Shown piece by piece: positions 14,601 to 46,088 of a DNA stretch of 64,000 bases. The stretch comes from Crossaster papposus (taxonomy: Eukaryota; Echinodermata; Asteroidea; Velatida; Solasteridae): assembly GCA_037893245.1 (NCBI GenBank), contig JBAIAA010000524.1, positions 682,001-746,000 on the forward strand, written 5' to 3'. Numbering within the stretch: position 1 is the first letter of the stretch; every line of letters starts with the position of its first letter. The notes below the pieces were generated by a model. The model was given only the letters and a program-made list of their open reading frames with translations. It was not told the origin of the DNA and searched no databases. The position numbers were made by a program, and so were the translations under genes.

Positions 14601-17600
14601 ACGCACAATTTCAATTTTTCAGCCAAATGGGATCTTGTACCGGTACATGTACACGTATTTCTTTTTCTGTAGCGGTATAACCCCAATATTCCATGTACAT
14701 GTACAAGTAAATGTTCTGTAAGACAAAGTAAAATTTCAAACTACTCTAACAATAGACCTAAAAGACCTAATAACATCACCCTTTGTTTACAAGTAAGCTT
14801 TTCTAAGTGATAGCATGTCCCGTCCTTAGTCCCTACTTCGTCTTTACTCCCATAATAAAGTGCATGTAAACAAAGCCATTAGGTCTCGTGTTTATTCTGA
14901 CCAAAAGACCATTAAATTGTTTGATTTTGACACAAAAGGAAATATTTCAGAAAACGGTTTAAATGTTTGACGAGTACCAATTACAGTCGCCTTAGTTGCA
15001 AATACGTAAACATACCGGTACGGTACATGGTCCAATGTAACATGCAAACAAATGTAAATTGAATTTTTAATTTGTTTAAGGAGACCAACAAAAATGTGAC
15101 GGGCAGTTTTAATGATAATGGAATAGCCAAGATGCATTCATATGGCTAGATTGGCAAATACAGCATGGTTTGAGGGGAAGGTAGTGGGAATTACTGGTCC
15201 CGAGGTTTACATAATATACTGAGACTGGTTCCGAAAGGATTATATGCCACAGACTACATGTCTACGAGGCAGATTCCAGAGGGAATTTGTTGTGCTACCA
15301 GAGAGAATACTGCACGGCAGCGAGCTGGATACTCACCGGGATGACGTCACATGGCAGTGTATCATTTTTACTTCCCGGACGCGCGGCGGAATCGACCAAT
15401 GATGCGCTCCAATTTGCTCATGAATATTTATGAGGTATAGTAACAACAAATAACCAACTGCTCTCTTTCTATTGCCAGGTGATCCCCAAAGATTATAAGA
15501 CCATGGCGGCCTTGTCCAAGTCCATCGCTAAGAACGTGCTGTTCTCTCATCTGGACGAGAACGAAAGAAGGTAACGCGTGTTGATACGCAGTGACTGGGG
15601 GATTTGGGCTCAATATAAAGTAGCGGTAGGATTTGACATGGATTAAGGGAGTGGGAAATCACCAGTGTGGACGGTTTTTTGTTTTATGTTTTAGAGTGGG
15701 ATGTAAACGGGCATGTTGAAATTTCACAATTCAGTTTCCCAAGATTTTGCAATGAATAAATGAAACCTATGAACGCTTATTGCTGGGGGCCAATTTTTAG
15801 AGCTGCTGAGTACAAATTTGCTTAGCATAAAAAGTCTTGTTCAGTAAAAAAGAAAACGGTTACCAGCCAAGACTCCATGTGCTTTTCATGATGAGCAAAA
15901 ACCAGCAGAATACCATTACCAGTCACAAACAATATACATGTACATGTACATACTATGTACATCACCAGAAAATTTGGTTTGTAACCCTGTTTTTGCCATG
16001 CAAATTGTTGTGCTTAGCAGCTCTATGAAATTGATTCATGTGTTTTTGACTTGTGTTAATTCCAATTTAATTTGTTCTCTCTCTCTCTTTTGTTTGTTTG
16101 TAGCGATATCTTTGATTCTATGTTCCCAGTCAAACACAGCAAGGATGAAGTCGTTATCAAGCAAGGTATGCTTCTTTGTCTAGTCAAGTTTTGTCAGTTC
16201 TCGAGTTACTCTGTGCAGTTGACTATGACAACATGTACACTCCCTTTAAAGATACGTTTTGTTCTGATATGTTTCCATAAAACGAAGCAGTGATCCCCAC
16301 ATCATGGTTCGTATGCAGCACATGAACATAATTGATTCCTCCTCCGGGCTGCGGCGACGAAACACGAAACCGGTTTACCACAGGGCCTGATTGAGATATT
16401 ACAATACAAAGCAACCCTGCCTGCTTGTTCAATTCCTCCTCTCTCCGCGCTGGAAATATGATCCGTAGCTCCCATTACGCACGCCAAACCGCTCGATATG
16501 TGCTGCGGCCCGCGATACCGGTTCTCTTGAAACGTAGTTGCCTGGAGCCACGGCCGTTAGTGAAGCGGCTCTCGCGCAGGTAGGGGAATTGTTATTAGAT
16601 GAGTATGCCCATTAGTGTCGGGGCAATCCCCGAATGATGGTGGACAAAATCTGGCCAGGAAATTGCAGTTCACTGCAGGGTTACTTCGGGGTGGGGGGAG
16701 GCCGAGGGTTAGGAAAAGACGGGTGCATTATTATACAAGTCTCGCTGCCAGGATTAATTAGTTGGTGAATGAAATTTGCTAAATGGATGTCGGGAACATG
16801 TATCCAATCGTACGATGAGTATGAAAGGTTCAGGGCACCCTTGTCGGTTGCAGGTAGCGATGAACATTTATTCTCCTTTGCTTTGCAAAATTGCAATCTG
16901 CAAATTGCAACAAAAGCAAGGGAAGGAGTTCAAGAAAAAACTGCATTATCTTTAACTTAAGACAAGAGGTTATGATTTGTTGATTATTTAGAATTTCTAC
17001 TGCTCTGCAAATAAATATGAGCCTTACATGAACTACTGGAACATTAGAATTTGACCACATCTCAAGTAAAAATGTGACATTAATTTGAGTATTACAAACT
17101 GAACTCGTTAAAAACAAATTGTTTTTTTTATTGTTCTGGGAGTAATACAATTTCTTTCATAAACAATTTTAGTGTGACTTTTCAAAGCCAATCAAATTAT
17201 TATTCAAACTAACAAAAATATATCTTGCATCAACATAATAATCTTTGTCTAAAACAGTCACTAGACAAAAAAAATACATTGCTTTTTAGAATATTGTAAA
17301 TATTGCAAATATTAAACACAACTTGCAAAAATTAACATGACCACATGGCCGTGAGGGAACTGTTTCTTTGTATTAAACTGCAGAATAGGAGCTCAGCTAT
17401 TGGGGACAAACATACAGTGCTTGCACTATAAATAGGCCATGTTCGAATTGTTGCTATGCTGTTGCTAAGGGCGCGGACAATGACCACCTATAGCAACAGC
17501 ATAGCAATGGCCGAAGTGACAGCCAAAGCCAGCAATTTGAACACGGACATAGTCGGGCTGATTTGTGAAAACAATTTCACTTGATAACAACATGAAATTT

Positions 17601-20600
17601 GGCGCACAATCACAGTTTTTCATGAGAAAGATTTTTGGCTGTAGGGCCATCAAAGATTTGTCCTTTGAAAAAAATTGGTAAAATAAAAAAGCAATTTTCA
17701 AATTTTTCAAGATGGCTGCCATTGCATGTAATACAATACCTGAATAAATCCCTGTCATATCATAGATAAATATTTGATTACGTGCATTGAAATATTCGTT
17801 CTATCGCACGGCTCGCGCCCACACTGTAAAATAGGCTCTATTCAATGGTTTTATTAAACGGTGAATAGAACTTCCGTTGCTCTGACTGATTTATTCAGGC
17901 GTTGAATAAAACAAATAATGAATGTTTCAGGAAAATAATAATAATAATTTCATGATGTGACAGATGGAATGTTCCATTTCATCTATCACATCATGAAATT
18001 ATTCTTACCATCGCACTCACAAACATTCATTATTTATATTTGATTTACTTATATTTTTTCAAAGGTCAAATTTGCGATGGCTCTACATGCCCTATAGCCA
18101 AAAATCTCTCTAATTGAAATTCTACCATATTGTACACCAATATGTCTGACTATAACTTGCACTAACCATGGAGCTAATAAAAACAGATGCTTGCTTAGCC
18201 AAAAATATATTGGCTTTAATAGCGATAACTGGTTACCAGCCAAAACGTTCTGCAATTGATATTGCATGTGACTGGCGACCAGCTGATTTTTGCTTGTAAC
18301 ACAACATTTCGATAAGCAGCATTGCTAAGCTATTATATGACATGTAATTTGGTACTGTTTCTGATAACGAAGTCCTGATTTGTTTCTTTCTTCGTATCAA
18401 TGATTTGTTGTGCAATAACTCGACCTTGATTATAACTGTATGGAACTTGGTTAGCAAAAATTAGTAAAAAAACAGGGTTAACAAACTAAATTTTCAGGTT
18501 ATGTATAATTATTGCCTGTGACTGATATTCAGCTGTTTTTTGCTTAGCATTAAAAACACATGGAGTTTTGGCCGATAATCTGCTTTTACTAAGCAAGACT
18601 TTTTTGTGCTAAGCAAATTATTGTGGTAAACAAATTTTTGTGCTTAGCAGCTCTATCAAATTGGTCATAGGTTTTGCCATCGGTCCGTTTGGATCAATAC
18701 AACGGATAGAAAGAGAATGCATACACCTGTCTGGCTATATTTAGATCCGGATTCCTGCAAAGGAAGAGACTGGCTTGCCGACTCAGGAAAATTAAGCTTT
18801 AGGTGATTTTCGTGGATACTGTAAAAACTGAATTCCAAAAACCGACCAAAATTATTGTTGAAAAGCTTATTTGACTTTAGAGACCCCTTTGGCATGCTGT
18901 TCTTTTGAAGAAAAATAAAGAATTAAAAAAATGCATTTGAGAGATGTATTTTTTGAAATTTCTGTTAGTAGACTCTAATGTGATTCTAGTGTGACGATCA
19001 TGCGACGGTCGTGCGATGAGTCTTTGGTGGTCTTTCATTATCGTGGATGATCGTAAGATTCTCCTGTCGTACTACAGTCACACAACTGTCCATGAATAGT
19101 TGCACAACTAAGCAAGACTAGTCGTACTCCACGGACAAGTCGTATGAACAGTCGCGAGTTGTCCTGCATTGGTTGTGGTTGCACGATTGGTTGTAACCAG
19201 TTGTGCGACAGGACCACTTGTACGTAGTCTTGAGCTGTCGTGCGACAGCCGTGTGATTAGTGGGATATCAGTCAGCAACAAGTCTTCAATACAGGTCGCA
19301 TGACTGGTCTTACAATGTGACTGCTAGGCTCAAATCCCAGGAAATATTCTCGACTACCCACGACCGGCCCTAGTCCCTTTTCCTGAACTGGTCGCAGGAA
19401 AACACAAATGCAAGCTCTGCCATTCTTCAAGCTTAAAAATCAAATAAGTTAAGAGGGCCTAATACTAATATTTTGATCTTAACAAGATCTTTTTCAAGCT
19501 TTTTATAATTTTCTGGTTTTTGTTTGTTTGTTTTCTTGCCAGGTGACGATGGAGACAACTTCTATGTCATCGATGATGGCGAAGTAGATGTGAGTATTGA
19601 TTAGCTTCTAACACCTGTCTATTTCAACCTGTATTTCGAAGACACTTGGTAATTTTGTCTCGCCTGAATGAAGTTCAGAAAGAGACTATGCAATCACTAT
19701 TTCGGTCTGTAGTCCGTACGTACATGTACCCATGCATAGTCTATCTGTATGTGTGTAATTTTTGTAAACTTTTCGAAAAATTTGTCTTGTATGCAAACTT
19801 GAAGTTTAATTGCATCAAACTTGGTTCATAGATGCAGTGTGGAAACTTTCATGTGATGGCGATATTAAAGGTCGCATACTGAGGTCAAAGGTCATTTGAG
19901 GTCGTAGGGTAAAAGGGTAATCTTGAAAAGTAAGCGGGACTTGTGGTTTGAAAACCATCCTTGTTTAGTATTGTTGGGTTCAAGAACCTCGTGTGTGTGT
20001 CTTACATCACATCCAAAATTAAGAATATGTTTATGAAGACTCGGGAAAGAAAATATCTATTCCCGAGAGTTTTCAAGGCATTACGCAGTATAGAATGTAT
20101 ATTGGCTCGGGAAAATTGAATAATCTGTATTCATTTTGAAATTTTATTTCAGTATTTGGAAACTGCAAGTACAATTTTTACATTTTACCCCAAAGCGTTA
20201 TGCAATATGGAACCTGTCTTGAAGATATAATAATACTAATAATAATTGTGCTTATGTAGCGCTTTCCATCGTATAAACGATCTTAAAGCACTTTACAATT
20301 ATTAATATGGGAAGTGATGATGAAATAGTTGTTTTTTGTTTCCTGGCTTAGATCTACGTGGATAACGTAGGTTTGGTGACAACCATTGGGGAAGGTGGTA
20401 GCTTTGGAGAGTTGGCCCTCATCTATGGAACACCAAGAGCTGCTACGGTCAAGGTAAATAATAGCATCTGGATTCTAGATGCTCACCAAAGCACCAGTCT
20501 GTTTTTTAATGGCCATCCTTATTCATATGTTGACCATTGTGTTCCCGGAATCTCAGGAATTCCTTTTAGGTTTCAAGGGGGGATGGGTTAGGTTACAATA

Positions 20601-23600
20601 GTGTTGAGTGCGTATAAAGTATAGGGATAAGAGGGGGGTACCCCTCTGCCACATATCGTGCTGGGTATATCCTTATTCCCCATAATGTACCTTTAAGCAG
20701 ATACCTTTAAGCAGATACCTTTTTCCTCATAATTTATACCATAGAGAGACGAGATATCTCTTTAATGTCACCTCTCCTGTTTGAAGGCAAAATGTTACTG
20801 ATGCAAAACTGCGTGATCAATTGTTTGCAAATGTTGTGAATCAATATCCAATGTCAATTTCAAATCCCCCCCTCCCCTCCCCCTCCCCCCACCCCCCACC
20901 CCCCACCCCCCACCCCCCTACCCCCAGGCTAAAGGTGACTTGAAGCTGTGGGGTATTGACAGAGACAGCTACCGACGTATTCTCATGGGTAGCACCCTGC
21001 GCAAACGCAAGCTGTACGACACATTCTTGTCCAAGGTGTCCATCCTAGGTAAGTTAAGTGCGAGTCATCAAGTTATACTCAGTGGTCAAAGTCCACCCAG
21101 GTCATTCTTCACATATTAGAGTCCAACGTGTGACCATTTGTTTAGATATCATTTTAACCCCAACCCCTAGGAGTTATACTGAACACGATCCTTGGCTCCC
21201 AATTTTTGTGTACAAAAAAAAAAGAACACTGTTGTTGAAAATATGATAACAGATTTATAGAAATCCACTGGGTATATCAAATGCTATTTAGGCCGTTTTT
21301 AATTCTCGAACATCAACCTGCCGTGAAGGAGGGCACCTGATGGATCGGCGGCCGAAATTGCTATCCCATGATGTTCGATTGTTTGTTATACCAGTAGCGG
21401 CATTTCACTGTAAAGATAGAATTTATCAGCAACGGTGGTAGTCCTTTTGAAAATAGTGAAAAATTATTCTACCTATATTTTGTCAGAGAACAAATCTGAC
21501 TATGGCCCTGCAGCTAAATATCTTGCTCATGACGTACTATTATTGTATGCCAAATGCCATGCTTTTATCATTTAATTGAACAATGTTTTAACTACTGTAA
21601 TCTGTCAGACTATCAAGAATGTTCTCGGTCCCAAATCAAAGTCCATTTCCAAAGCCCGACAAGATCACTCACAAATCCAGACATCCTGTGTCGGAGATCT
21701 TGCTTTGGGCGAGAGGCTGCAATTCTCTAAGATCCCAGCTGAGCTGACGTCAAAGTGCTAGCATACGATCAATCACAGCCATCTGCAATCTCAAATTCGC
21801 CTGAATTCGCCTATATAATAGTACTCGCACTTCCTTTAACATATCCAAAATATCAATGTTCATCTATTCTCATAAATTTAGCACATTGAGTGATGCCATC
21901 CCAACCTAAGAAAGTGTTTGGAATGAAATTTTGTCAATTTATGGTTCATTGTATTATTTTGGGGTTCACTGTTTTTACCCGTCCTTGTTACCTAATTATG
22001 ATGCGCTTCTTAGCTTAACCCTAACTTTTCCACATCCTCTAGGATTTAAATACCATGTCATGTTAAGAATTTCCAGGAATTGTTGAAAAAAAAAGAATGA
22101 AATAAAACGCGGCCTCGGACAAAGATACTGACAATTTGGGAGACTGCCAACATAGGGCAAGATAGTTAAGTTGGTAGAGCGTTGGTCCGGTATTCCGAAC
22201 GGTCGCAGGTTCGAGTCCTGCCTTGCCAATTTCACTCTGAAATGTATTTTTGTTAGAGTTACTTTGGCTTTTCATTTATTTGGTTGCCTCCAAATTGACT
22301 GTACAAATTGCCTCGTGGGACTCGGCCCTTAATGCATTTGAGCTTTGTTCTACAATGGAACCTGCAATCACCCCTTGCGTGGTCATTTTGTTGTCTCGTC
22401 CAGAGAGCCTTGACGAATGGGAACGCCTGACAGTTGCCGACTCGCTGGAACCTGTCAACTTTGAAGATGGGGAGAAGATCGTAGTCCAAGGGGATCCTGG
22501 TAATGACTTCTACATCATTGTTGAGGTGAGATAAACCTAAAGGCATTTCAGCCCCAAATCCAGTCGCACTGCTGGTGCCCGTATTGGCTGACGTAATCAA
22601 GAACTGAATCGGTCGTCGGTCATTGGTTGAGCATTTTTATAGCGACCTCGTGATCATGTGACTGTTCCTACCAAGGTTAAACCTCCGGTTGGTTTGGTTG
22701 CCACTTAAAATTTAAGCTGGCTGAAACGTTAACATGTTGCAATTGTTATATTTCTGTTTTGTTTGTTATTCAAAAATATACTTTTGTAAATAAAGTCACA
22801 GCGGTGAATTTAGTGAAAATAAGCCAATTTTGTACTACTTTAAGTTTGTTGAAACAGAAAAGAGAACTCTTGTCGTTGAGTGTTATGTCTGCTACTCAAG
22901 TTGCTTGTAATGTTAGGCCTTGCGTGTGTGTGACAAACAATTCTGGGTAATGCGTTTTTAAGCGTTGAACAAAATTTGTTTCCGGGTAAAAGCCTGCTAT
23001 GAACTGGAATCCCATTCGGCATACCCATGGACATGGCTAATTGGTCAAAGAAGGAACAAATTAGTGTTTGTACCTTTCCAGACTCTTCCTTTTTTTTTTT
23101 TACAAAGACGCAGACAAAAACATTTGTTTGTTTGTTTTTGTTTTTAAGGGACAAGCTTCGGTTCTGCAGAGGCGTGATGAGAAGGATGAGTTCATTGAAG
23201 TGGCCAAGCTAGGACCCTCAGATTACTTTGGTAAGATGAACGATTGGCAATCCCCCCAAAAAAAGTACAAAAAAACCTGAATGTCTGGCACGGGCAAAGC
23301 ATTCCAAATTTCACGGATATTATTCAATTTTGTGCCTGCCCCCGATTTAACTAAATGCTGCGACGCGTCGCAACTAGAGTAACGAAGAGTAACGTGTCGC
23401 ATCTTGCGACGCGTCGTACAATTCATTTCATAAAATTTACCATTCTTGCCTTTACCCTTGCGTTGTTTGCAGGTGAGATTGCCCTCGTCCTCAACCGACC
23501 CCGTGCTGCCACCGTCATTGCCCGCGGCTCCCTCAAATGCGCCAAGCTTGACCGGGAACGCTTTGAGCGTGTCATGGGACCCTGCGCTGACATCCTCAAG

Positions 23601-23645
23601 CGCAACATCACCCAGTACAACAGCTTTGTACAGCTTGTCGTGTAG
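5454..23645 (+). CDS. PRKAR1A: cAMP-dependent protein kinase type I regulatory subunit (10 exons, 381 aa)
   Basis: This protein inhibits the PKA catalytic subunit and releases it when cAMP binds. CDS exons are 5454-5612, 12688-12873, 15479-15570, 16104-16165, 19543-19589, 20352-20453, 20928-21048, 22404-22525, 23149-23230 and 23473-23645; all introns are GT-AG and the phases agree. Visible features are the pseudosubstrate RRGAF at about residues 95-99, cAMP pocket A ([16 protein letters not shown], about 200-215, with E202 and R211), pocket B ([16 protein letters not shown], about 324-339, with E326 and R335), and the C-terminus NSFVQLVV. Total length matches vertebrate RI-alpha. The oddity is that residues 1-53 ([10 protein letters not shown] then Ser/Gly/Gln-rich) replace the usual dimerization/docking helices, so another first exon may lie upstream of the window. 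RI-alpha and RI-beta are probably not separated in invertebrates, so the symbol is by family. Confidence 0.96.
6105..6911 (+). mobile_element. 5'-truncated LINE fragment (reverse transcriptase C-terminus, frameshifted)
   Basis: The piece lies in PRKAR1 intron 1. Reading frames contain [33 protein letters not shown] and [14 protein letters not shown], the conserved post-RT region of CR1/L2/Rex-like LINEs. The frame shifts near 6325-6340, so the copy is dead. It ends in the tail AATAAATAAATAAAT at about 6897-6911. The 5' edge is approximate. Confidence 0.85.
9041..9428 (+). repeat. MITE family 1, copy 2 (full length)
   Basis: This is the best preserved copy, running from TTAAAGGTAGTACACACCAT to TATACTACCTTTAA. 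The central hairpin is CTCTCGCC-GTCC-GGCGAGAG. TTAA or TA target duplication is possible. It lies in PRKAR1 intron 1. Confidence 0.88.
10103..10918 (-). mobile_element. 5'-truncated LINE with 172-codon open frame (reverse transcriptase C-terminus)
   Basis: The minus-strand frame 10915-10397 reads [51 protein letters not shown] and GPKNWNYL. These are the LxYC, QKRAIRI and GPK-WN motifs of the region after the RT domain in CR1/L2-like LINEs. The open frame suggests a fairly recent insertion. The 3' end is a short (ATTGA)n tail at about 10105-10127, seen as ATTCA repeats on the plus strand. It lies in PRKAR1 intron 1. Confidence 0.88.
10397..10915 (-). pseudogene. LINE reverse transcriptase C-terminal fragment
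   Basis: This is the coding remnant of the LINE above, open to its stop and ending [10 protein letters not shown]. It lacks endonuclease and RT catalytic domains, so it is not a working gene. Confidence 0.8.
12315..12365 (-). repeat. half copy of the TTAA MITE
   Basis: GCGCCTTGGCTCAGTGATGT and ATAATCCTGGCGCAAACTGG plus TTAA match one end of the 49.9-kb element in reverse. Confidence 0.65.
12688..12873 (+). CDS. PRKAR1A: PRKAR1 exon 2: acidic linker and pseudosubstrate
   Basis: The acceptor is CCCCAG and the donor is GTAAAA. The 62 codons hold a Glu/Pro-rich linker and [10 protein letters not shown]. Phe at the P+1 side replaces the Ile common in vertebrates. The exon ends YAASYVKK, as in RI subunits, and both ends are phase 0. 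Confidence 0.95.
13245..13522 (+). repeat. MITE family 1, copy 3 (truncated)
   Basis: The left end is lost into a T/G run. The interior AAATATCGTTTAACTGACCT and GGATGCCGAGAAAA is followed by a deletion that removes the hairpin. The right end CTACCTTTAAA is kept. It lies in PRKAR1 intron 2. Confidence 0.8.
14122..14508 (-). repeat. MITE family 1, copy 4 (reverse)
   Basis: This full-length copy is in reverse orientation, TTAAAGGTAGTATATACCAT to GTGTATACTACCTTTAA, with hairpin CTCGCCGTCCGGCGAG. It lies in PRKAR1 intron 2. Confidence 0.88.
15342..15349. promoter_or_regulatory. palindromic CRE upstream of PRKAR1 exon 3
   Basis: TGACGTCA lies in a CpG-rich patch (15300-15400, with CGGACGCGCGGCGGA) that also has CCAAT at about 15397, some 130 bases before exon 3. 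It could mark an internal promoter. Confidence 0.3.
15479..15570 (+). CDS. PRKAR1A: PRKAR1 exon 3
   Basis: The exon encodes [16 protein letters not shown] and continues to FSHLDENER, nearly identical to vertebrate RI. It ends two bases into a Ser codon. The internal Met sits in ACCATGG, a strong initiation context (see findings). Confidence 0.97.
15785..16034. repeat. foldback family 2, copy 1
   Basis: The left arm GGGGCCAATTTTTAGAGCTG and the right arm CTTAGCAGCTCTATGAAATT are inverted versions of each other. Inside are TTGCTTAGCA and ACCAGCCAAGACTCCATGTG. It ends about 70 bases before PRKAR1 exon 4. Confidence 0.8.
16104..16165 (+). CDS. PRKAR1A: PRKAR1 exon 4
   Basis: The exon encodes the start of cAMP-binding domain A ([20 protein letters not shown]). 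Phase is +2 on entry, with one base of a Gly codon left at the donor GTATGC. Confidence 0.96.
17440..17555. repeat. inverted repeat around TTGCTATGCTGTTGCT
   Basis: TTGCTATGCTGTTGCT (from about 17451) is complemented by AGCAACAGCATAGCAA (from about 17492), and GTTCGAATTG by CAATTTGAAC further out. PRKAR1 intron 4. Confidence 0.75.
17940..18005. repeat. strong hairpin
   Basis: AATAATTTCATGATGTGA is followed after about 25 bases by TCACATCATGAAATTATT. The outer flanks AATAATGAATGTTT / AAACATTCATTATT extend the palindrome. PRKAR1 intron 4. Confidence 0.85.
18175..18668. repeat. foldback family 2, copy 2 (composite)
   Basis: Repeated TGCTTAGC/GCTAAGC, GTTACCAGCCAAAACG and a right end CTTAGCAGCTCTATCAAATT match the family. 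Internal order suggests nested or rearranged copies. PRKAR1 intron 4. Confidence 0.65.
18965..19385. repeat. degenerate repeat rich in GTCGTGCGAC-like palindromes
   Basis: Many variants of GTCGTGCGAC, CAGTTGTGCGAC and AGTCGTAC occur on both strands over 400 bases. They suggest an old self-complementary element, not a coding region. Confidence 0.6.
19430..19505 (-). repeat. dispersed repeat with hammerhead-like core, copy 3 (fragment)
   Basis: On the minus strand, AAAGATCTTGTTAAGATC and AGGCCCTCTTAACTTATTTG are present. It lies in PRKAR1 intron 4, about 40 bases before exon 5. Confidence 0.65.
19543..19589 (+). CDS. PRKAR1A: PRKAR1 exon 5
   Basis: This 47-nt exon encodes (G)[15 protein letters not shown], the cyclic-nucleotide-binding beta-hairpin. 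The acceptor is TTGCCAG and the donor is GTGAGT. Confidence 0.96.
19655..19966 (+). repeat. dispersed repeat family 3, copy 1
   Basis: TGTCTCGCCTGAATGAAGTT, ACTATGCAATCACTATTTCG, CTGAGGTCAAAGGTCATTTG and AACCATCCTTGTT are shared with the copy at 57591. It begins 66 bases after PRKAR1 exon 5. Confidence 0.82.
20352..20453 (+). CDS. PRKAR1A: PRKAR1 exon 6: phosphate-binding cassette A
   Basis: The exon encodes [16 protein letters not shown] and then [17 protein letters not shown]. It contains the Glu and Arg that bind cAMP ribose and phosphate in site A. It is 34 codons long, phase 0 at both ends. Confidence 0.97.
20928..21048 (+). CDS. PRKAR1A: PRKAR1 exon 7
   Basis: The exon encodes [19 protein letters not shown], then [21 protein letters not shown], the helix joining domains A and B. 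The acceptor follows an almost pure C/CCCCCA tract (see findings). Confidence 0.97.
22155..22228 (+). repeat. tRNA-derived SINE head
   Basis: GGGCAAGATAGTTAAGTTGG, then AGGTTCGAGTCCTGCCTTGC, gives a cloverleaf-like sequence with an A-box and a B-box (GGTTCGAGTCC at 22208-22218). The anticodon arm does not pair well and the 5' flank TACTGACAATTTGGGAGAC is shared with the 63-kb copies, so this is a SINE, not a tRNA gene. It lies in PRKAR1 intron 7. Confidence 0.8.
22404..22525 (+). CDS. PRKAR1A: PRKAR1 exon 8
   Basis: The exon encodes (E)[22 protein letters not shown] and onward to NDFYIIVE, the start of cAMP-binding domain B. The acceptor is CGTCCAG and the donor is GTGAGA. Confidence 0.97.
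23149..23230 (+). CDS. PRKAR1A: PRKAR1 exon 9
   Basis: The exon encodes [20 protein letters not shown] and LGPSDYF, leaving one base of the Gly in pocket B. The acceptor is TTTTTAAG and the donor is GTAAGA. Confidence 0.97.
23473..23645 (+). CDS. PRKAR1A: PRKAR1 last exon: phosphate-binding cassette B and stop
   Basis: The exon encodes (G)[18 protein letters not shown] and onward to NSFVQLVV, then TAG. A C-rich 3' UTR with a 22-bp triplicate follows. Confidence 0.97.
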
Positions 23646-33238: not shown

Positions 33239-34030
33239 TCAAAAGGCTAGTATAAACGTTGAATCGATGACAATGGGGCACCGCCAAACTTCGCTTCACT
33301 TGAGCGCACCCCCCCCCCCCCCCCCCCCCCCCCCATTCAGTCCGCCGGGATTCCCGTCCTCCTTGACAACGACACGAGACCGATCAGGGCCAGGAAGAAC
33401 ATGGTAGTAACGGGAAAGAACGCACAGTCATTAACGAGACCGCTTCTAAGATCAACGACCCAAGCCGCTCGATCTTTTGATCATACCGCTGACCGTCAGA
33501 GGTCGAAACCGCATCAGTTCACATTCCATTGACAGACTAGCGAGAACACGAATACAAGACTATAGATAAGATACAAATAGCGTTGGCAGCCACATTATTG
33601 AAACGTTTCATTAAAAAGGCGTTGTTAAAAAAACTGCAAGACGGTTCGTATCTTTCGGGTCCTAACAAATTAAGTTGGAATTTGGAAAAAGAGCAAATTG
33701 AATTTTGACATTATTTATTAACAGTACGTTAAAGTTGCGGCATGGAGGAATAAACTAGTTTATTCCCCGGTACCCGAACCGACAAAAATGAAATCGGATC
33801 TCGGCCGGCCGGTATTCGGGGATATCTGCCGGGTGTCCGGTGTAATTGATACCTGGGGTTTATATTACATTTGGCTTGGTTTTGTAATGAAGCATATGTT
33901 CTTGCAACATTTCAGTAACCGAGGTCACTCAGTATTTGCTGACTGATAACACGTACGGTATCGACTTTTGTTTATATGCAGTGAACTGTACAGCCGCTTC
34001 ACGAGAAGAAACACACTTTCTGATTCTAGC

Positions 34031-34079
34031 ATGATGGAAAACGCCTTAAGAAGTCGTAAGCGTACGTATGACCAAGGAG
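34031..34079 (+). CDS. PDZ-trefoil gene exon with start codon
   Basis: The exon starts ATGATG and encodes MMENALRSRKRTYDQG, with donor GTAAGA. TTCTGATTCTAG lies just before the ATG, so this may be an internal exon whose 5' UTR begins further upstream. Confidence 0.75.
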
Positions 34080-37000
34080 GTAAGAAACACCACTCAAAAT
34101 TAAACAGATTAAGCGTGACTATGTGAAAATCCGTAATGGATATGTCGGCAATGAAAAATAAAAACAAAAACGTGTCGTGATCATGATGGAGTTTTTGTAT
34201 GTATCTTGGTGTTAATTACGGACATGACAAAATGTTACATGGTCTTCATATGTGAGAGCAAAGAATTTTGATAGGAGCTTATAAATCTTCATGTTGGATT
34301 AACACTTTATCCCACTCGAGCCAGTTTCTGATCCTAAACAACCATTATGTTCTCCATAACTGCCCATTTTATCCTTCTGTGACAATGGTCAAATAATTAT
34401 GTAATTGATTAATTAATTGTTCATTGATCCACATTAAGATGAAAGCAAGAAGAAAAGCCGATCGGCTGATAAGGCAACAAGTCCTGAATTAAGTTCAGCT
34501 CAGGAAACCCATCAGACTGCTCCTGTAAGTACTTTATTTGTACGTTTTTTTATGAATTCAGACTTTTATTTGCATGTGGCCTCTCACAGTCACTGGTGGA
34601 GGTTTACAATTAAGTACAACCGCGCCTTTTAGGGGAGGGGCGTCGTAGTACAGGAGGAGGAGCAGAGAGTATCAAATGTTTTACAATTAGCTGGACGAGG
34701 CCTGTCAGTACTGTGTCGTTCCGGTTTTTGTAATAGTTGGTATAAATAAATAAATGTTTGTATCTTGTACACAGCCATTTTATCTCTGAAGAAGATCTTG
34801 TTAAGATCAAAATATTAGGCCATCTTAACTTATTTGATTTGTATATTTCAGGTCATTCCAGCCAGTAAGCAGTTTGCAGCAGTTTTAATCTTATTCAAGT
34901 TTGTAATAATGTTTGATTTGTATCGGATTGTTTCATTCCGATATCGATGTAGAAAATTTGGGGCCACATAAAACTCACATACGAAGGGAAACTGGTGGAC
35001 TTTCATGCTGGCTTGAACGACATAGATGGCGAGTACGTCTTGCAACATGTCACCGAAGATGGCTTAGCTTATTCTGCGGGATTCCGGTAAGAATTGACTC
35101 GACAAATCGCCCATCACAAGGCCAAAGGCCACTCATAGTGTGGGCTACAGAGGAAAGTGTTAAGACACCATGCCCCTCACACTGGAACAAGACAATCTTC
35201 ATAGTATGAATAGGGTGGAAATGGAAAACTAATTAATATGTACAACTCGGTGTTATCTTAAAGCCCCTCACTCCCCCAACACCCCCCTAACACCCCCCCC
35301 CTAACAAAACAAAACAAAAACACAAATAAATAAAAATAATAATAATTATACAACAAATTTTACAAAAATAATTTTTTTTTCTCCAACTGACTCGGTAGGA
35401 GTGGCGATAGGTTGTTTCAGATAAACGGTTCGGACATCAAAGGTTGTGGCATTAAATACATTCTGGAGCTTCTCCGCACATTTAACAGACATCAACTGAT
35501 GCTGGTAAGCATGAGAATGGGACATTCGCGTGTATTATTTTTCTAGGAGGGTTACGGGCAATTATCATTTTACACTGAGGGGAATACACTTAAGTTGTAT
35601 TGCTTACATTGCTGTCCCTTAAAGGTATAGAATACACCATTTGCAGATATCGAAGAAAATAAATACTACCAAATTATTAAGAAATATCTTTCTTATTTGA
35701 AAGTAAATAATAATTCTATGCATCCATCAAAATGATTGTGCTAGATATCCTGTAATTGATCCAAACAATTGATTTTTTTTATATTTTAAATCACGATTGC
35801 CGGACGGCACAAAAAAGCAAGAACAACAAGAGCCGTGCTGCCCGACGCCGGTTCAAAACGAATGGCGTTTTTCTTCAATTATTATCGATTGACAATAACT
35901 TGAGTCGACTGAATGATTTTGCATCGATTGTACGTGTGGCACATGTTAATAAGCTACCATTCCAGGGGCGGGGCCGTTTCACCAAAACACTTTTTCCCCT
36001 CATATTTATTACTCAAAATCACTCAATTAAATATAATCTTTCATTTAAACTAAAAAACATTACATTACATCGGTCCTCTAATGTATATGAAGCAAGTTGT
36101 TACGCTTCTCATGCCATTTATTTATGCGCAGGGTGTTGAGAGGACAGCTGCGGACAAATCTTCGCTGTTTATTTGGGTCATCTTCAAGGTGGTTTGGCAA
36201 GGTAAGTCAGACACGAACATATGACAAACCTTTAGCAGATTTGGTGGTTGTCAAAATATACTGATATATATTAATTACTGTACTGAGAGGTACAGTTGGC
36301 CGTATTTTTATTTACAGCGATACGATTATTTATCTAGCGCGTATTACGATAATTCTTTTGAGGGGAGGAGGGGGACATATTGGACACTAGAGAACGGTAA
36401 ATGCGGAGGATTTTGGGTCAAGCCAAGCACACATCAGACTAATTTATTTAACATAGTATGAAATTGATTGATATCGGACGAATTCCATCTTTGAATGCTG
36501 CCTTTCCGCCACAGCTTAGACAAAATTGAATGTGAGAGTTCATGTGAACTTGAATGAAAAACGTTTTAAAATAACCAGGAAAACTTATAGTAAATATTGC
36601 CAAGACACTTTGTGGTTGAGTATGAACTGGGCAACGTTTCAGATCTTTGTTTGATTAACCTTTTTACCCCCCCCCCCCCCCCCCCAACAGATCTCGTGCC
36701 AAAGATTGAGATTATTGAAACGTTTGAAAACGACATCATCGTATTATTCTCTTATGACGATTCGAGGCCAGTGGTGCAGTATGATATTTACACCGACAAG
36801 GATCCACAACTGTATCTCGGCATACAGGAAGAGAAGGCTGTGTTCAATACGAAGTACAATGAGTTTAGTAAGTACCGTGAACTACTTATCCACAGACAGT
36901 GACAGCAAAATCAGAAGAGAAACGTAAGAAAATATATCAAACAAAACGCAAACAATGACAAAACGTACCGACAATGCCAAGGATGATGACTACATTGACG

Positions 37001-38966
37001 GTGATACTAGATCGACGAGGACGGTGACAATTCACTAATTTTCGAGGTGGGTGTCCAGAAAAAAAACCTGTGTTATTTTGTATGAACACTTTTGCGACCA
37101 ATACAAAACTTGAGCTGTAGTTTGATGTAGTCGTGATTCTAATCGTAGAGAGTTCACCGTTTTCTGACGTGTAAGAAACCGTCAGTATTTGTGCAATATT
37201 TGAGTGAACAATCTCGGAACGGGTAAGACATATAGGTTGGTTTCCTTTCAACCAGATGTTTAAAATAGGATAAACAATCCAAACATAAAAATCTCAGGCA
37301 TTTCAGGACCTAGTGACCTTTCAATAATTATAGTGGGACTTTATTGCAATTTGTTTTCAGGCAAGTTCACTGGGTACTTGTACTACGGCAGCCAACCAGA
37401 AAAAGGCAACGTGTTAGTCTACTTATTACAGATCGACAAGCCCGATTCGCCCCAACCGGTTACTACACTGACGGGTACCGTTAATAATACTGTAGGAGTT
37501 GTGGTAAGTTCGTTAAAAAGGAGAAAATACAAGACCTATATATCCCGATGTATTATGCCTACGAACTTTCGGCCAATCGTTTGTGAATTACAATCAATGT
37601 ACAAATGTATACATATTTAATTCCCGAATGGATAGCTAAAAGTGTTCACACAAAGCGTTACAAACCAGGCCGGCCACACACGTTTTCTTGTATCACGAAG
37701 TGTAGGTTTCCCCGGCTATTTAAAAACATTTTAAAATCAAATTCACAAACTCTCGCATTCCAATTCGTCCGGGAAACAAATTCACACACTTTTACCAAAC
37801 CAATAAGAACATTCGTCATTACAGATCAAATTCGTCTAAGCTGTTGCTTGATCGGAATTTGGTCGGTAACGACGAATATTTTCGATTGCTAGCAAAATGC
37901 AAACTAACTGATTTTGGGATATAGTATTTGAAAGAAGTCAGTTTTTTTCCAAAGCTGATCGGTCGACCAGCGATGGAAATTGATATAAAAATAATTTTCT
38001 TGAAAATGACGGCACACAAGGTGCCATAATTTTACAGGATGCTTTAGACTGTCATTCACCAACAGTCCAGTAAGGTATTTCATAATAATTTGGTATTTTG
38101 TTTATGTTTGCAAATGTTGTATATTTCCTTTAAGCGACAAGATAGCAAAAATACCTCCAACAATCTTATAAGATGAATGTATATAACAAACATAATTGTG
38201 TTTTTGTTGTTGAAGGATTTTCCAGCGTTCATGCTTGAAAAGGCCATTCCTGCCAACCCCCGCTTCTGGTACCAAAAGTTATACAAGAATGGATTTTCCT
38301 TGGAGAGCGTTATGGCGAAAAGTAATATACAATACGATTATTCAAAACTTCGAAAGACACCGTATTAATCAAGTGTCTTTTTGAGGATTTTAAATATTTG
38401 TTTACGGTAGGGGTGCATTCTTAAGGAGTGCACAGTGCGAAAGCGAGAAAACGAACCAACCAACGAACAAAACACTCCCATAAAGCTGTTGAAATTTCAT
38501 TAAGATCGGTCATTTTAGAGAAAAAAAAACTTTGGAAAAACGACCGTCATCTTAGATTTGGCGGCCATTTTTGTTTTTAAAATTGGTAAGAAAATGGTGA
38601 AATTAAAAAAAATATATAATTTCACTGAATTCCTAATACCCCGAAATGGGGATAAATCACCGCCTTTGGTCGGTTTATAATTATTTTGTTTAGGTGTAAA
38701 ATGCATAAATCACTGAAGATGGCCAAAAAAACCACAAAAACCAGTTTCACAGTAAACCACTTTTTCACCAAAAACTTGGCCTCGGGTGTGAAAATCATCA
38801 AAAATGTATATGGGGTTTTTCTACCAAATAACGTTACCCTTATTCTAGGCAAAATGAGAGCTGTAATATCTTTTTCCTTTTTTCCTTTTTGTTTTTTTTT
38901 GTTTTTTTGGGGGGCAGTATTGCCTATTGTCAATGGTTAAAAATGAGCCACTGGGGAAGGAGTGGT

Positions 38967-39003
<37 letters not shown>

Positions 39004-39308
39004 TGCTCGTCATTACCATTTCTCACTTTCTTTGTTTACTGAAAATGGATTCACCATCCACTGTTATAATGATGAGCATTTTCTTTTGAACCTGTTTACG
39101 CCATCCATTGTTATATTGCTGATTTTAGTTCACATTAAACCCATGCATGGTTATTGGTTATTTGTTTTTACCCATTACAGACATGTACCTGGGCGTGGGT
39201 AAGAATGGTGAGGCTGTGCTGTCGAACAAACCAACTGAATTTGGGGTGAGGGCAAGCACGAGGCCGCCTATGGCCAAGCTGGAGAAGTCTGCACCTAAAG
39301 CAACCTAA
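34031..39308 (+). CDS. PDZ plus beta-trefoil (IL-1/FGF-like) protein, 9 exons, 332 aa
   Basis: I know no named orthologue. CDS exons are 34031-34079, 34439-34524, 34953-35086, 35399-35504, 36132-36201, 36691-36867, 37361-37503, 38216-38321 and 39181-39308; phases agree at every junction, and at exon 3 an in-frame TAG forms the acceptor itself. Residues 1-45 are basic (RSRKRTYDQ, SKKKSRS) with no signal peptide or membrane segment. Residues about 48-128 fit a PDZ fold (GLAYSAGFRSGDRLFQING, then ILELLR). Residues about 150-315 carry LYLGIQEEKAVF (189-200), FSLESV (282-287) and NMYLGVGKNGEAVLSN (291-306). The spacing resembles the IL-1 family (LGI strand, then F/S-x-E-S before the last strands); FGF and fascin trefoils share the second type of motif. 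No cysteines pair obviously. The exon chain is sure; the fold is inference from motifs. A nuclear or cytosolic protein released without a signal, as in IL-1 relatives, is a hypothesis. Confidence 0.85.
34439..34524 (+). CDS. PDZ-trefoil gene exon 2
   Basis: The exon encodes DESKKKSRSADKATSPELSS and then AQETHQTAP, a charged and Ser/Thr-rich linker, with donor GTAAGT. Phase fits both neighbours. Confidence 0.8.
34736..34905 (+). repeat. dispersed repeat with hammerhead-like core, copy 1
   Basis: CTCTGAAGAAGATCTTGTTA, AGGCCATCTTAACTTATTTG and CATTCCAGCCAGTAAGCAGT are shared with the 59.5-kb copy in reverse. It ends just before exon 3 of the PDZ-trefoil gene. Confidence 0.7.
34953..35086 (+). 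CDS. PDZ-trefoil gene exon 3: first half of PDZ
   Basis: The exon encodes KIWGHIKLTYEGKLVDF and onward to EDGLAYSAGF. The codon immediately upstream is TAG, which serves as the acceptor AG and fixes the boundary. LVDF takes the place of the usual carboxylate-binding GLGF. Confidence 0.85.
35399..35504 (+). CDS. PDZ-trefoil gene exon 4: second half of PDZ
   Basis: The exon encodes SGDRLFQINGSDIKGCGIKY and then ILELLRTFNRHQLML, with the PDZ GD-x-h-h-x-h-NG motif and the following helix. Donor is GTAAGC. Confidence 0.88.
35619..35877 (-). repeat. MITE family 1, copy 5 (partial, reverse)
   Basis: The sequence TTAAAGGTATAGAATACACC, GATATCGAAG and ATTGCCGGACGGCA is shared with the family. The copy breaks off near 35877. 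It lies in an intron of the PDZ-trefoil gene. Confidence 0.8.
36132..36201 (+). CDS. PDZ-trefoil gene exon 5
   Basis: The exon encodes GVERTAADKSSLFIWVIFKV and then VWQ, and probably includes the last PDZ strand. I chose the donor GTAAGT at 36202 over an internal GTGGTT because only the former keeps phase with exon 6. Confidence 0.78.
36691..36867 (+). CDS. PDZ-trefoil gene exon 6: first trefoil strands
   Basis: The exon encodes DLVPKIEIIETFENDIIVLF and continues to LYLGIQEEKAVFNTKYNEF. The acceptor AACAG follows a run of about 20 C. Donor is GTAAGT. Confidence 0.88.
37361..37503 (+). CDS. PDZ-trefoil gene exon 7
   Basis: The exon encodes SKFTGYLYYGSQPEKGNVLV and onward to GTVNNTVGVV. The acceptor TTGTTTTCAG and donor GTAAGT are both strong. 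Confidence 0.88.
38216..38321 (+). CDS. PDZ-trefoil gene exon 8: FSLES motif
   Basis: The exon encodes DFPAFMLEKAIPANPRFWYQ and then KLYKNGFSLESVMAK. The F-S-L-E-S stretch is placed where IL-1 family proteins carry their signature. Donor is GTAATA. Confidence 0.85.
38958..39001. repeat. poly-G run of about 38 bases
   Basis: This is a homopolymer G run in the last intron of the PDZ-trefoil gene. Other long C or G runs are at 33309-33335, 36667-36685, 50527-50558 and 58216-58238. Lengths in assemblies are unreliable. Confidence 0.9.
39181..39308 (+). CDS. PDZ-trefoil gene last exon
   Basis: The exon encodes NMYLGVGKNGEAVLSNKPTE and then FGVR, followed by a basic tail KLEKSAPKAT and TAA. The acceptor is CCCATTACAG. 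An AATAAA at 39636-39641 is a suitable poly(A) signal. Confidence 0.9.
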
Positions 39309-42742: not shown

Positions 42743-45700
42743 GTAGGTTTGTGCTAATGAGTAATGCCAGTATTATTAGTAATGCCGGTTTGTGTTGTGT
42801 GAGGTGACCAAAATGAGTAAGTCATTTTGGTCGTGTTCTCTGGATGTAAATTATTGGTTTACTGTGTGAACTGTTGAATGGGATGGTGCCAGACTATTTT
42901 TGCAGTATAGATGCCTCACTTTCAATATTTTTTAAAGGTAGGATACACCATTGTAATTGCTTTTATGGGTGGATTTGGGGGGGTTGAATTTTATAGTAAA
43001 TTATCATTTAACTGGCCTGTCCGAAGTTCTACAATTAATCATATAGATGCTGAGAAAAGCAAGAAAAACAGCGTTCGTTAATTTCAACCGGTGTCAGGCA
43101 CCAGTGGTTCTTATGATCATTGTCATTGATGTTCTTGTTTTTTTCACGATCGCTGTCTGCCGATCGTGAATTTGTTTTATAAAATCATTTTTCGGAACAA
43201 TTACAGGATATCTAGTGCAATCCTTTTGCTGGATGCCTACAATCATTAATTACTTTCAAATAAGTAAAATATCTCCTCATATTTTGGTAGTAACATTTTT
43301 CCGATATCTGCAAATGTAGACTTGGCATAAAAACATTAACCTTAACCCACCTCAATCCTCTCAATCCTCAAAAGTTCTTGTGTTTTTTTTGGCAGGTGTT
43401 TTCCATCATTGTATTTGGCTGCATTGCAGATAAAGGCTGGGTGCGTGTTGCTGGTGGTAGACTGTGTATCTTCCTTTATGATACAAATGCCTGCAATTTT
43501 GGGATCACTGTTGGCGTTGTTGCGTTCCTCGCTTGCATAGGATTCCTCGTTGTTGATTTTCTGTTTGACAACCTGAGCAACGTGCAGATGCGAAAATATG
43601 CTGTCATAGCCGATTTAGCATTTTCAGGTGAATACAAGTGAAAAAGGATTTATTTAACCTTTTCCTTATCATGTTTTTTTTAATTAGGGTTGTTAGATTT
43701 TAATCATTAATTTAAATCATGATTTAAATCACTGAAAAAAATATAAAATACTAATAAAAATCACTTTAAACTTTTTTTTTTAAATTTCTGTTATTTTTTA
43801 AAGTAAAAACAGTCTTTTATTGAAACAAGACTTTCTTTTAGTTTAAATTGATAATACAAACTATAATAGGGATTTAAATTATTTAAGTTATTATTTTTGC
43901 TTGTTTGTTTGCAGGTCTCTGGACGTTTATGTGGTTTGTCTGCTTTTGTTACCTAGCTGATACCTGGAGACGCACACAACAATTTTTATTTCCCGAAGAA
44001 ACTGGACAGGCAGGGGCGGCCATCGCTTTCAGCTTTTTCTCCATTATTCCCTGGGTAATGAATTCTGTGTTCTTCTAGTATAGAATAGACCTGAGCCATA
44101 ATGACGTAATGGCCTTGTTTACCTGTGTACTTTCTTATGGGAGCAGGGTCAGGATGCCAGACAATCGTCCCCACCCGGAAACCGCAAGAAGGTGCACATA
44201 TAAACAAAGCGTCACGTCATTTACATCTAAGTTTATTGGTTTTGTCCGATTTGGTAACCTTCCCCGCCGCCCCCTTCCTTCACACTGAACCGTCCCAATA
44301 TAAAGTATAATGATAATGAAGATCCCCACAAATATTGAATTGTTGATGGAATTTTTGGTTACAAATCTTTATTTTTTGTTTGTATTTTTTATTTCTGTCA
44401 TCTCTAATAAGGGTAAACTCTGATCAGTACACAGCGCTGCTTTCCATGGAGGCATATACAGTAATAATAAAAACAGTGTACATTATACAAGCTATACAAA
44501 AATCATCGTACGAGATAAAATAACGCATGTATACAAAAAACATCAAAAAGTAAAGAATATATAACAAAGTTACAAAATACAATTTACTATACACATTTAC
44601 AGGTTGATTAAATTTAAAATGTGCTCCTTGACATGTCAAAGGTCATAACTTTAGTTTTTAAAGCATTGACAGTTTATTTGTTATTATGCAATTCTATATT
44701 TAAAACATAGATGAGGTTAAATTATCAAATATGCAGTTGCCGTATTTTCAAAGTACATTATAGAACTAATAGGCTTTGTAAAAAGAAAACAGTAAGACGA
44801 TATAAAAACAATGATCGAGCAAAATATTCTGTAAAATTCAGAAAATGCGATTTGCACGTCTAATATAATATCTGCAGTGTACTCGTGCCAGGTTATTTTT
44901 TTAGGCAAACACGAGGCTTGAACCCTGGACCCATAGTAACTCGGGTGTGAGTATGAATCACTGCATGAGTAGAATGTCACGTGCATGTAATCTAATGCAA
45001 CCAAATGCAACCAAATCACCTTTACATTGTCTGATTAGCAGATACTGGGTCAAGTCTGATTACCAAGTTGACCCTTGACCTGTATTAGTCTGAGCATTTA
45101 GAGAATTACCTGCACATATTTTTTTTACATTGTTTTTATAGGAATTTGTATTTGAAGGATTTATAGCTTTTGCGTGATGTTCATTGAGTTTTTGAAATCT
45201 GTTTGAAATTAAATTACATCTAAGGCCAAGTAAAAAATAATTGGTGCAGCGTCCAAAATCGGAGTGGGCGGGGACAATCAACATGTTATTTTTTTTACTT
45301 GGCCTAATGGAAACTAAAGCTGAGCTTGGAACAGATACTTCCATGTTTTCTTATGCTTTCTTATGCTTTTTAAATTCAAAAATTTCTTGAAGACATTCTT
45401 ATATCACACACTCACGCATCATACATGTGTAACAGTCAAATTAACAGTTGAAATATTGTTACCTTTGAAACAAATGTATTGCAACAAATTGGCCAATTAG
45501 TCCTCTATGTTTAGTGAGTGTTTTAGCACTAACAGTGCTGAATCCATCAGTTTCAATACACATTTTAACGCATTTTAACTGTATTTTAACACATTTTAAC
45601 TGTACATGTAGATGCATTAGTACTTTCATTTTCACTGAACAGTTTTCAGTGTAAATATTCTTAAATTTGTATTAACCGTAACCTCCCTGAATCCATAAAA

Positions 45701-46088
45701 ATCCATACCCCCTTCACGAGCAGGGTCTGTGGTGGCTGACTCGGGTGAGGGTCGAGTATGACGTCGCAGCCAAAACTAACAAGTCGACCTGTGTCTGTAC
45801 TGTACCCAATGTTTGTACGTGTAGCTGGAACATTCAGTATGTTGTACAATATCTTTAATCTTGCTGGTGTTGTTCTCCTTGTATTCGGTACTCCAGGCCG
45901 GATTGACAGTTCTGGCCTTCATGAGGTACCGGCAGGGCTCCCAGGCTGCCTTCTCCCAGAGCTACGAACCCGAGGGCAATGCACCTCCGCCAACTGGACA
46001 GGTTACCAGTGGCGACTCCTACCAGCAACCCCCCTTCTCGGAGAAAACGGAGGTACCACACTCGCAATTCGAGGCGCCAACCTACTAG
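42641..46088 (+). CDS. SYNGR: synaptogyrin (4 exons, 221 aa)
   Basis: Synaptogyrins are four-pass MARVEL-domain proteins of synaptic vesicles and related microvesicles. CDS exons are 42641-42742, 43396-43627, 43915-44054 and 45897-46088, with phases 0, 1 and 0. The N-terminus MEGGAYGAGKA is identical to the vertebrate start. Transmembrane segments are near residues 26-48, 73-95, 112-128 and 145-168, and the luminal loop holds GRLCIFLYDTNACNFG. The cytosolic tail is rich in Gln, Pro and Tyr (SYQQPPFSE) and ends APTY. Length (221) is close to human SYNGR2. Vertebrates split the family into several paralogues, so I give no number. Confidence 0.96.
42932..43317 (+). repeat. MITE family 1, copy 6
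   Basis: TTAAAGGTAGGATACACCAT begins the copy and the hairpin is CACGATCG...CGATCGTG. The last CTACCTTTAA is missing. It lies in synaptogyrin intron 1, ending about 80 bases before exon 2. Confidence 0.85.
43396..43627 (+). CDS. SYNGR: synaptogyrin exon 2
   Basis: The exon encodes VFSIIVFGCIADKGW, the luminal loop, the second membrane segment GVVAFLACIGFLVVDFLF and the cytosolic loop to IADLAFS. Acceptor is TTGGCAG and donor is GTGAAT. Confidence 0.96.
43915..44054 (+). CDS. SYNGR: synaptogyrin exon 3
   Basis: The exon encodes (G)LWTFMWFVCFCYLADTWRR and onward to AAIAFSFFSIIPW, covering the third and the start of the fourth membrane segment. Donor is GTAATG. Confidence 0.96.
44095..44222. 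repeat. short foldback with ATGACGT...TTGTTTA arms
   Basis: ATGACGTAATGGCCTTGTTTA at 44099 is inverted at 44200-44220 as TAAACAAAGCGTCACGTCAT. Synaptogyrin intron 3. Confidence 0.65.
45221..45306. repeat. short foldback with TAAGGCCAAGTAAAAAAT arms
   Basis: AGGCCAAGTAAAAAATAA at the left is inverted at the right as TTATTTTTTTTACTTGGCCT. The loop holds GGAGTGGGCGGGGAC. Synaptogyrin intron 3. Confidence 0.75.
45897..46088 (+). CDS. SYNGR: synaptogyrin exon 4
   Basis: The exon encodes AGLTVLAFMRYRQGSQAAFS, then the Pro/Gln-rich cytosolic tail and TAG. AATAAA at 46554-46559 is a suitable poly(A) signal. Confidence 0.95.
   Translation, partial: AGLTVLAFMRYRQGSQAAFSQSYEPEGNAPPPTGQVTSGDSYQQPPFSEKTEVPHSQFEAPTY

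Follow-up and report, generated by a model that had tools for sequence, protein, structure and literature searches.

A starfish gene joining a PDZ domain to a putative IL-1/FGF-type beta-trefoil, with an architecture resembling fish nIL-1F

A gene encoding a PDZ domain followed by a domain with IL-1- and FGF-like features lies in a 64,000-nucleotide stretch of the genome of the starfish Crossaster papposus (assembly GCA_037893245.1, contig JBAIAA010000524.1, positions 682,001 to 746,000, forward strand), hereafter called the window. The most probable reading is a leaderless protein in which one PDZ domain precedes a C-terminal beta-trefoil of the IL-1/FGF fold, homologous to the fish protein nIL-1F. 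A preliminary description of this DNA had proposed nine exons joined in phase to give 332 amino acids. Scripted joining reproduced this chain (34031-39308, + strand), with GT donors and AG acceptors at all exons, and every sequence word quoted in that description is present in the translation. Four junction variants are open (330, 331, 331 and 332 amino acids), of which the 332-residue variant, with GTAAG or GTAAT donors throughout, was the version analysed. The gene comprises the following features (nt, nucleotides):

34031..34079, + strand: exon 1, residues 1-17; start codon and basic N-terminus RSRKRTYDQGDESKKKSR (residues 7-24, extending into exon 2), without a hydrophobic leader
34439..34524, + strand: exon 2, residues 17-45; polar linker, with SAQETHQ common to Patiria P0001 (see below)
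34953..35086, + strand: exon 3, residues 46-90; PDZ domain, N-terminal half
35399..35504, + strand: exon 4, residues 90-125; PDZ domain, C-terminal half
36132..36201, + strand: exon 5, residues 126-149; end of the PDZ domain and linker FIWVIFKVVWQD, followed by a phase 1 intron
36691..36867, + strand: exon 6, residues 149-208; initial portion of the proposed trefoil (KIEIIETFEND..., LYLGIQEEKAVF); 177 nt, flanked by phase 1 introns
37361..37503, + strand: exon 7, residues 208-255; middle part of the proposed trefoil (KFTGYLYYGSQPEKGNVLVYLLQ ... NNTVGVV); 143 nt, phase 1 to phase 0
38216..38321, + strand: exon 8, residues 256-291; DFPAFMLEKAIPANPRFWYQKLYKNGFSLESVMAK, FxF/FES-like region
39181..39308, + strand: exon 9, residues 291-332; NMYLGVGKNGEAVLSNKPTEF, final hairpin and strand of the proposed trefoil, then a short tail and the stop codon
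39636..39641, + strand: candidate polyadenylation signal AATAAA

The five most hydrophobic 19-residue segments start at residues 136-139 and 150 and none lies near the N-terminus; judged by hydropathy only, the protein is predicted to have no signal peptide, as the IL-1 family would lead one to expect. A tblastn search found no second copy of the gene within the window (best non-self E 0.82). Long poly-C / poly-G runs at 33310-33334 and 38967-39000, near and inside the gene, are possible weak points of the assembly.

Relatives of the protein were found in two other starfish species. When the whole protein was scored over residues 128-325, a single protein among 131 candidates had E <= 1, namely P0001 from Patiria miniata, recorded as ‘uncharacterized protein LOC119737400 isoform X1’, with E 5.7e-56 and 58% identity over these residues. 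Of 902 candidates scored with a two-sequence starfish profile, four had E <= 10, all of them from starfish: P0001, another isoform (X4) of Patiria LOC119737400 (P0002), and P0003 and P0004 of Acanthaster planci (LOC110985596/LOC110985595). With the C-terminal domain alone as query, no protein reached E <= 0.001 (17 candidates), and no relative was found in phage and viral collections. The Patiria and Acanthaster records, named only ‘uncharacterized’ or ‘PDZ domain-containing’, represent the same protein over both domains, with identities to the conceptual chain across the PDZ and C-terminal domains of 59% (P0001), 54% (P0002), 46% (P0003) and 44% (P0004). P0004 is shorter at both ends and lacks the basic N-terminus seen in the window protein.

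It is hardly credible that the chain is an artefact of gene prediction or a decayed gene. Its splicing is conceptual only, but the nine exons are open, in phase and bounded by canonical sites, and identity over both domains is about 60% to the Patiria model, predicted independently by NCBI, and reaches 44-46% with the Acanthaster models. Because four starfish proteins align with it over both domains, the nine-exon chain is regarded as correct as first proposed.

The starfish records show some variation of their own. P0001 and P0002, recorded as isoforms, have only 68% identity over the C-terminal domain, a difference that points to tandem copies or alternative exon sets having been combined in one gene model. 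Acanthaster has two gene records, with consecutive LOC numbers, whereas the Crossaster window has one copy. Inspected by eye, residues 1-12 of Acanthaster P0003 (MGGIFSKHRAKR) resemble an N-myristoylation site accompanied by basic residues, a start that differs from that of the window protein, and membrane attachment of P0003 would fit a PDZ scaffold.

The PDZ domain, which had been claimed from motifs, was recovered by profile search. Residues 78-129 of the window protein match PDZ_6 (E 1.4e-5, 25.2 bits), just under the curated cut-off of 27 bits, and all four starfish relatives have a match to the same model, above the cut-off in Acanthaster P0003 (32.7 bits) and Patiria P0002 (27.1 bits) and just under it in P0001 (25.7 bits) and P0004 (26.2 bits). 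The best matches in the PDB by sequence are the PDZ domains of SNX27 and Shank, and the predicted PDZ domain of the starfish protein is considered secure. No GLGF was seen by eye in the carboxylate-binding loop; the window protein has GKLVDF at that place, and VDF is invariant in all five starfish sequences. Ligand binding may accordingly differ from that of GLGF-type PDZ domains. The linker between the PDZ and C-terminal domains, F-[IL]-W-V-I-F-K (exon 5, 36132-36201), is one of the most strongly conserved segments in the starfish family and lies outside both domain models, with F138, W140-K144 and Q148 invariant in all five sequences. D149 was considered as a caspase site directly before the proposed trefoil; it is lost in both Acanthaster sequences, which weighs against a simple caspase model.

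The combination of a PDZ domain with an IL-1-type domain had been put forward as novel, but both have already been published in one fish protein. Lumpfish nIL-1F has 352 amino acids, an IL-1 family domain (InterPro) and a PDZ domain, seven coding exons, and predicted caspase-1 and thrombin sites, and members are described from teleosts, elephant shark and coelacanth (PMC7144542). nIL-1F is without a signal peptide, and the recombinant trout protein (last 169 amino acids) did not induce inflammatory genes and inhibited IL-1beta-induced expression (PMC4929537). Compared by description only, the starfish and lumpfish proteins share a PDZ domain and an IL-1-type domain in one leaderless chain of similar length (332 against 352 amino acids); they differ in exon number (nine against seven coding) and in that InterPro recognises an IL-1 family domain in the lumpfish protein, whereas the starfish protein has no Pfam IL1 match above the cut-off. 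Zebrafish il1fma is presumably the same gene as nIL-1F, or nIL-1Fm. Since the architecture has been published, the novelty lies in the host, and the existence of this precedent makes an IL-1 reading of the starfish domain more likely.

To examine the C-terminal domain, residues 128-332 were compared by glocal alignment with a profile of seven human IL-1 family members. The score of 51.0, against 18.6 ± 10.1 for shuffled sequences (z 3.2), was reached by 12 of 4000 shuffles, and by 8 of 1000 when shuffling was restricted to blocks of 20; that of the Patiria domain was reached by 8 of 4000. Among the controls, the reversed sequence gave z 1.3, six PKA segments gave z <= 1.3, and z >= 3 was reached by 2 of 150 stretches translated from the window with stops omitted. 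Known IL-1 members left out of the profile gave z 5.0 (IL-33) to 21.7, which places the starfish domain below the most remote known member. A profile of the five starfish sequences fitted IL-18 (z 3.9) and IL-33 (z 3.6) best among single human IL-1s, these scores being reached by 0 and 1 of 1000 shuffles, respectively. IL-1Ra (2.2), IL-36gamma (1.7), IL-1beta (1.6), IL-1alpha (0.9) and IL-36RN (0.3) followed, their scores being reached by 30 to 352 shuffles, and three PKA segments gave z <= 0.9. IL-33 was also the best partner in pairwise Smith-Waterman alignment (score 46; 1.1% of 1000 shuffles reach it), and the match stays collinear across most of the domain; seven other proteins were weaker, the next by rarity being FGF1 (39, 2.4%). 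With hhalign, the window domain scored 17.8 against the IL-1 profile, a value reached by 9 of 300 shuffles, compared with 19.3 for left-out IL-33, and the five-sequence starfish profile matched IL-1 at E 0.048 over 84 columns.

A region resembling the FES region of the IL-1 family is present in all five starfish sequences. When the Patiria domain was compared with 24,736 Pfam models, PF00340 (IL1) came first, located over this region and below threshold (E 0.085), with an unrelated model as runner-up (E 0.14). A motif defined after looking, [FL]E[SC] and then an aromatic/hydrophobic pair, occurs in all five starfish sequences, in six of the seven human IL-1s and in 50 of 20,000 shuffles. This region of the family is described as F-F and FES-PG-WF (PMC12108812); at the same place all five starfish sequences carry R-[FL]-W-Y and [FL]ES-x(5)-MYL, and the proline is not there.

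Further likeness was found in the introns. The eight introns of the starfish gene have phases 1,0,2,0,1,1,0,1, in which introns 5, 6 and 7 (1,1,0) are followed by one more (intron 8, phase 1). As given in PMC4880838, the turtle IL-1beta gene has the phases (II,0,I,I,0), IL-1beta genes typically have (1,1,0) for the last three, and the twelve IL-1beta strands are encoded in the last three exons; starfish introns 5-7 agree with this published pattern of last-three phases. In two alignments made blind to introns, V255|D256 (intron 7, phase 0) falls on V85|D86 of IL-1beta. We take V85|D86 to be the IL1B exon 6/7 border; intron 6 lies two codons off the corresponding IL1B border in one alignment, and in a gapped stretch of the other. 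The human IL1B exon lengths, which we take to be 47, 52, 202, 171 and 131, reproduce the phases (II,0,I,I,0), and the two starfish exons enclosed by introns 5-7 measure 177 and 143 nt, where IL1B has 171 and 131. FGF2 has a phase 1 intron before strand 4 and a phase 0 intron after strand 7. Because these also fit introns 6 and 7, the latter speak for the IL-1/FGF lineage as a whole and intron 5 for IL-1.

Several results weigh against placing the domain in the IL-1 family. The C-terminal part has no Pfam match, alone or within the whole protein, and PF00340 is above the cut-off in none of the five starfish domains, below it in one and absent from the other four; since human IL-33 is also without a PF00340 match, this does not exclude membership. 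The PROSITE IL-1 signature was found in 0 of 5 starfish sequences and 4 of 7 human members. A PDB search with the starfish profile returned no IL-1 chain, the three matches at E <= 10 being a T-cell receptor chain, FGF1 and MtrE. Among 5.8 billion proteins, the starfish pair retrieved starfish only, and no vertebrate IL-1 or nIL-1F. The internal three-fold repeat was not significant (p 0.086), in a test that all seven human IL-1s fail as well. The remaining points concern FGF. In a dynamic-programming test with 500 shuffles, the window domain gave p 0.002 (glocal) and 0.008 (local) for IL-1 and p 0.032 and 0.008 for FGF, so that in local mode it fits both profiles equally, and FGF2 gives z 4.6 against the IL-1 profile. 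When profiles were compared with profiles under column shuffling, the two-sequence starfish score was reached in 0 of 400 shuffles for FGF and 2 of 400 for IL-1, and the five-sequence score in 0 of 200 for FGF in both local and global mode, against 6 (local) and 3 (global) of 200 for IL-1.

These FGF results, together with FGF1 among the three PDB matches, are what would be seen if, in echinoderms, an FGF- or fascin-type trefoil had become linked with a PDZ domain, giving an intracellular scaffold whose likeness to nIL-1F is a convergent joining of domains. Intracellular FGF homologous factors, which act inside cells, offer an analogy, and the two core introns of FGF2 leave two of the three intron matches non-discriminating. 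The FGF signal is the last hairpin, where the five-sequence profile matches FGF at E 0.0011 over 23 columns (hhalign; 22 columns in the local column-shuffle match) and starfish MYLGxxxNGxAxLS matches FGF YLAM..DG.L..S. Over the whole length, however, the fit of the same profile is at chance for FGF1 (z -0.2; score reached by 559 of 1000 shuffles) and FGF9 (0.3; 368) and weak for FGF2 (1.9; 42), and neither Pfam FGF (PF00167) nor Fascin is matched in any of the five domains. Moreover, the [FL]ES motif and the third of the intron matches (intron 5, phase 1), about 59 codons upstream, fit IL-1, for which fish nIL-1F provides the precedent of a joined PDZ domain. We therefore consider an FGF or fascin origin unlikely. 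The starfish domain has in common with FGFs the hairpin YLxM..xGxxxxS and, if it is a trefoil, the cytokine fold, whereas a PDZ domain is not known from FGFs, although no search aimed at a PDZ-FGF precedent was made. Sequence does not settle IL-1 against FGF, because the profile-profile comparison matches the FGF hairpin more strongly.

The C-terminal domain could also be beta-rich without being a trefoil, starfish-specific or fast-evolving, with its IL-1-like words arising by chance. There is no significant named match, relatives were found in starfish only, and the two of 150 random translated stretches mentioned above also reach z >= 3 against the IL-1 profile. Searching the PDB with the domain alone (single-sequence phmmer) gave no match. 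Single-sequence AlphaFold models had a mean pLDDT (predicted local distance difference test) of 53.5 for exon 6, with four strands in the weak model, and 35.5 for P0001, a quality too poor for a fold search. Such a chance origin appears improbable in view of lines of evidence that agree in place, namely the fit to IL-18 and IL-33, the top Pfam match to IL1, the FGF hairpin, and the phases and positions of the introns; in addition, a domain of ~150-170 amino acids follows the PDZ domain, as in nIL-1F.

Taken together, the evidence for an IL-1/FGF-type trefoil is moderate but convergent. The C-terminal domain is likely a beta-trefoil of this type, and kinship with IL-1 in particular is favoured with less assurance. 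With IL-18, IL-33 and IL-1beta it shares a like domain size, the [FL]ES motif and the intron phases 1,1,0 (published for IL-1beta). It differs from them in its weak sequence similarity, the missing PROSITE signature, the extra intron 8 (phase 1) and the PDZ domain, which is not known from these and other IL-1 family cytokines. Of the claim that a PDZ domain is joined to an IL-1/FGF-like trefoil in an invertebrate genome, the PDZ domain, the IL-1/FGF-like features of the C-terminal domain and the type of genome have held up, whereas the trefoil itself and the choice of IL-1 over FGF are plausible readings.

Two neighbouring genes were identified in the window. A gene for a PKA regulatory subunit (RI) in at least nine pieces lies upstream at 12751-23636 (+), and a synaptogyrin-like gene with a MARVEL domain (E 1.8e-18) lies at 43294-46088 (+). 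Over 279 residues, the starfish RI is identical to human RI-alpha at 222 positions (79.6%) and to RI-beta at 219 (78.5%), while RI-alpha and RI-beta share 248 (88.9%). Being equally far from both human subunits, which are closer to each other, it appears to have split off before the vertebrate RI-alpha/RI-beta duplication. This comparison and the starfish-only relatives argue against a vertebrate origin of the DNA and bear out the ‘invertebrate-type’ genome of the preliminary description. Gene order at the vertebrate IL-1 loci (CKAP2L and others; PMC7144542) was also considered, but the two neighbours identified, the PKA RI and MARVEL-domain genes, lend synteny no support. A tRNA-Thr (GGT) gene is located between PKA RI exons (22155-22229, +), and a 184-amino-acid open frame at 10397-10951 (-) looks by eye like the C-terminal part of a non-LTR (long terminal repeat) retrotransposon, with no Pfam match.

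If the starfish protein is a PDZ-containing relative of nIL-1F, a mode of action can be envisaged. The full-length protein would be kept in the cytoplasm or nucleus, where the PDZ domain may tether it to partners or keep the trefoil inactive. Cell damage or proteolysis of the linker could then allow the trefoil to reach the outside and bind an Ig-TIR receptor of the IL-1R type. The protein could act as an agonist or an antagonist, or as a scaffold confined to the cell. Reviews covering invertebrate IL-1R-like receptors list a study on the starfish Asterias forbesi among their references.

The origin of IL-1 has been placed in vertebrates (PMC9020223, PMC9382457, PMC5861070), and IL-1 ligands are stated to be absent outside them (PMC9020223, PMC9382457). 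The portions drawn on from PMC12108812, PMC4090809 and PMC5787515 contain nothing on invertebrate IL-1 ligands, and no invertebrate PDZ-IL-1 gene was among the matches listed by title in the open-licence literature, subscription papers and preprints being outside this scope. Reviews do report IL-1R-like Ig-TIR receptors in invertebrates, including deuterostomes (PMC9020223, PMC12108812), and IL-1-like activities in echinoderms (PMC9020223). An nIL-1F-like protein in echinoderms would, if true, contradict the vertebrate-only distribution of IL-1 ligands and offer a candidate ligand for these receptors and activities, in genes that databases still label ‘uncharacterized’. Such a gene would also point to fish nIL-1F as the ancestral form. 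More tentatively, and at slightly less than even chances, the IL-1 family may not have been born in jawed vertebrates: nIL-1F and the starfish gene could be little-changed descendants of an early form, IL-1, IL-18 and IL-33 could be copies from which the PDZ domain was lost, and intron phases may tie the FGFs into the same ancient trefoil lineage.

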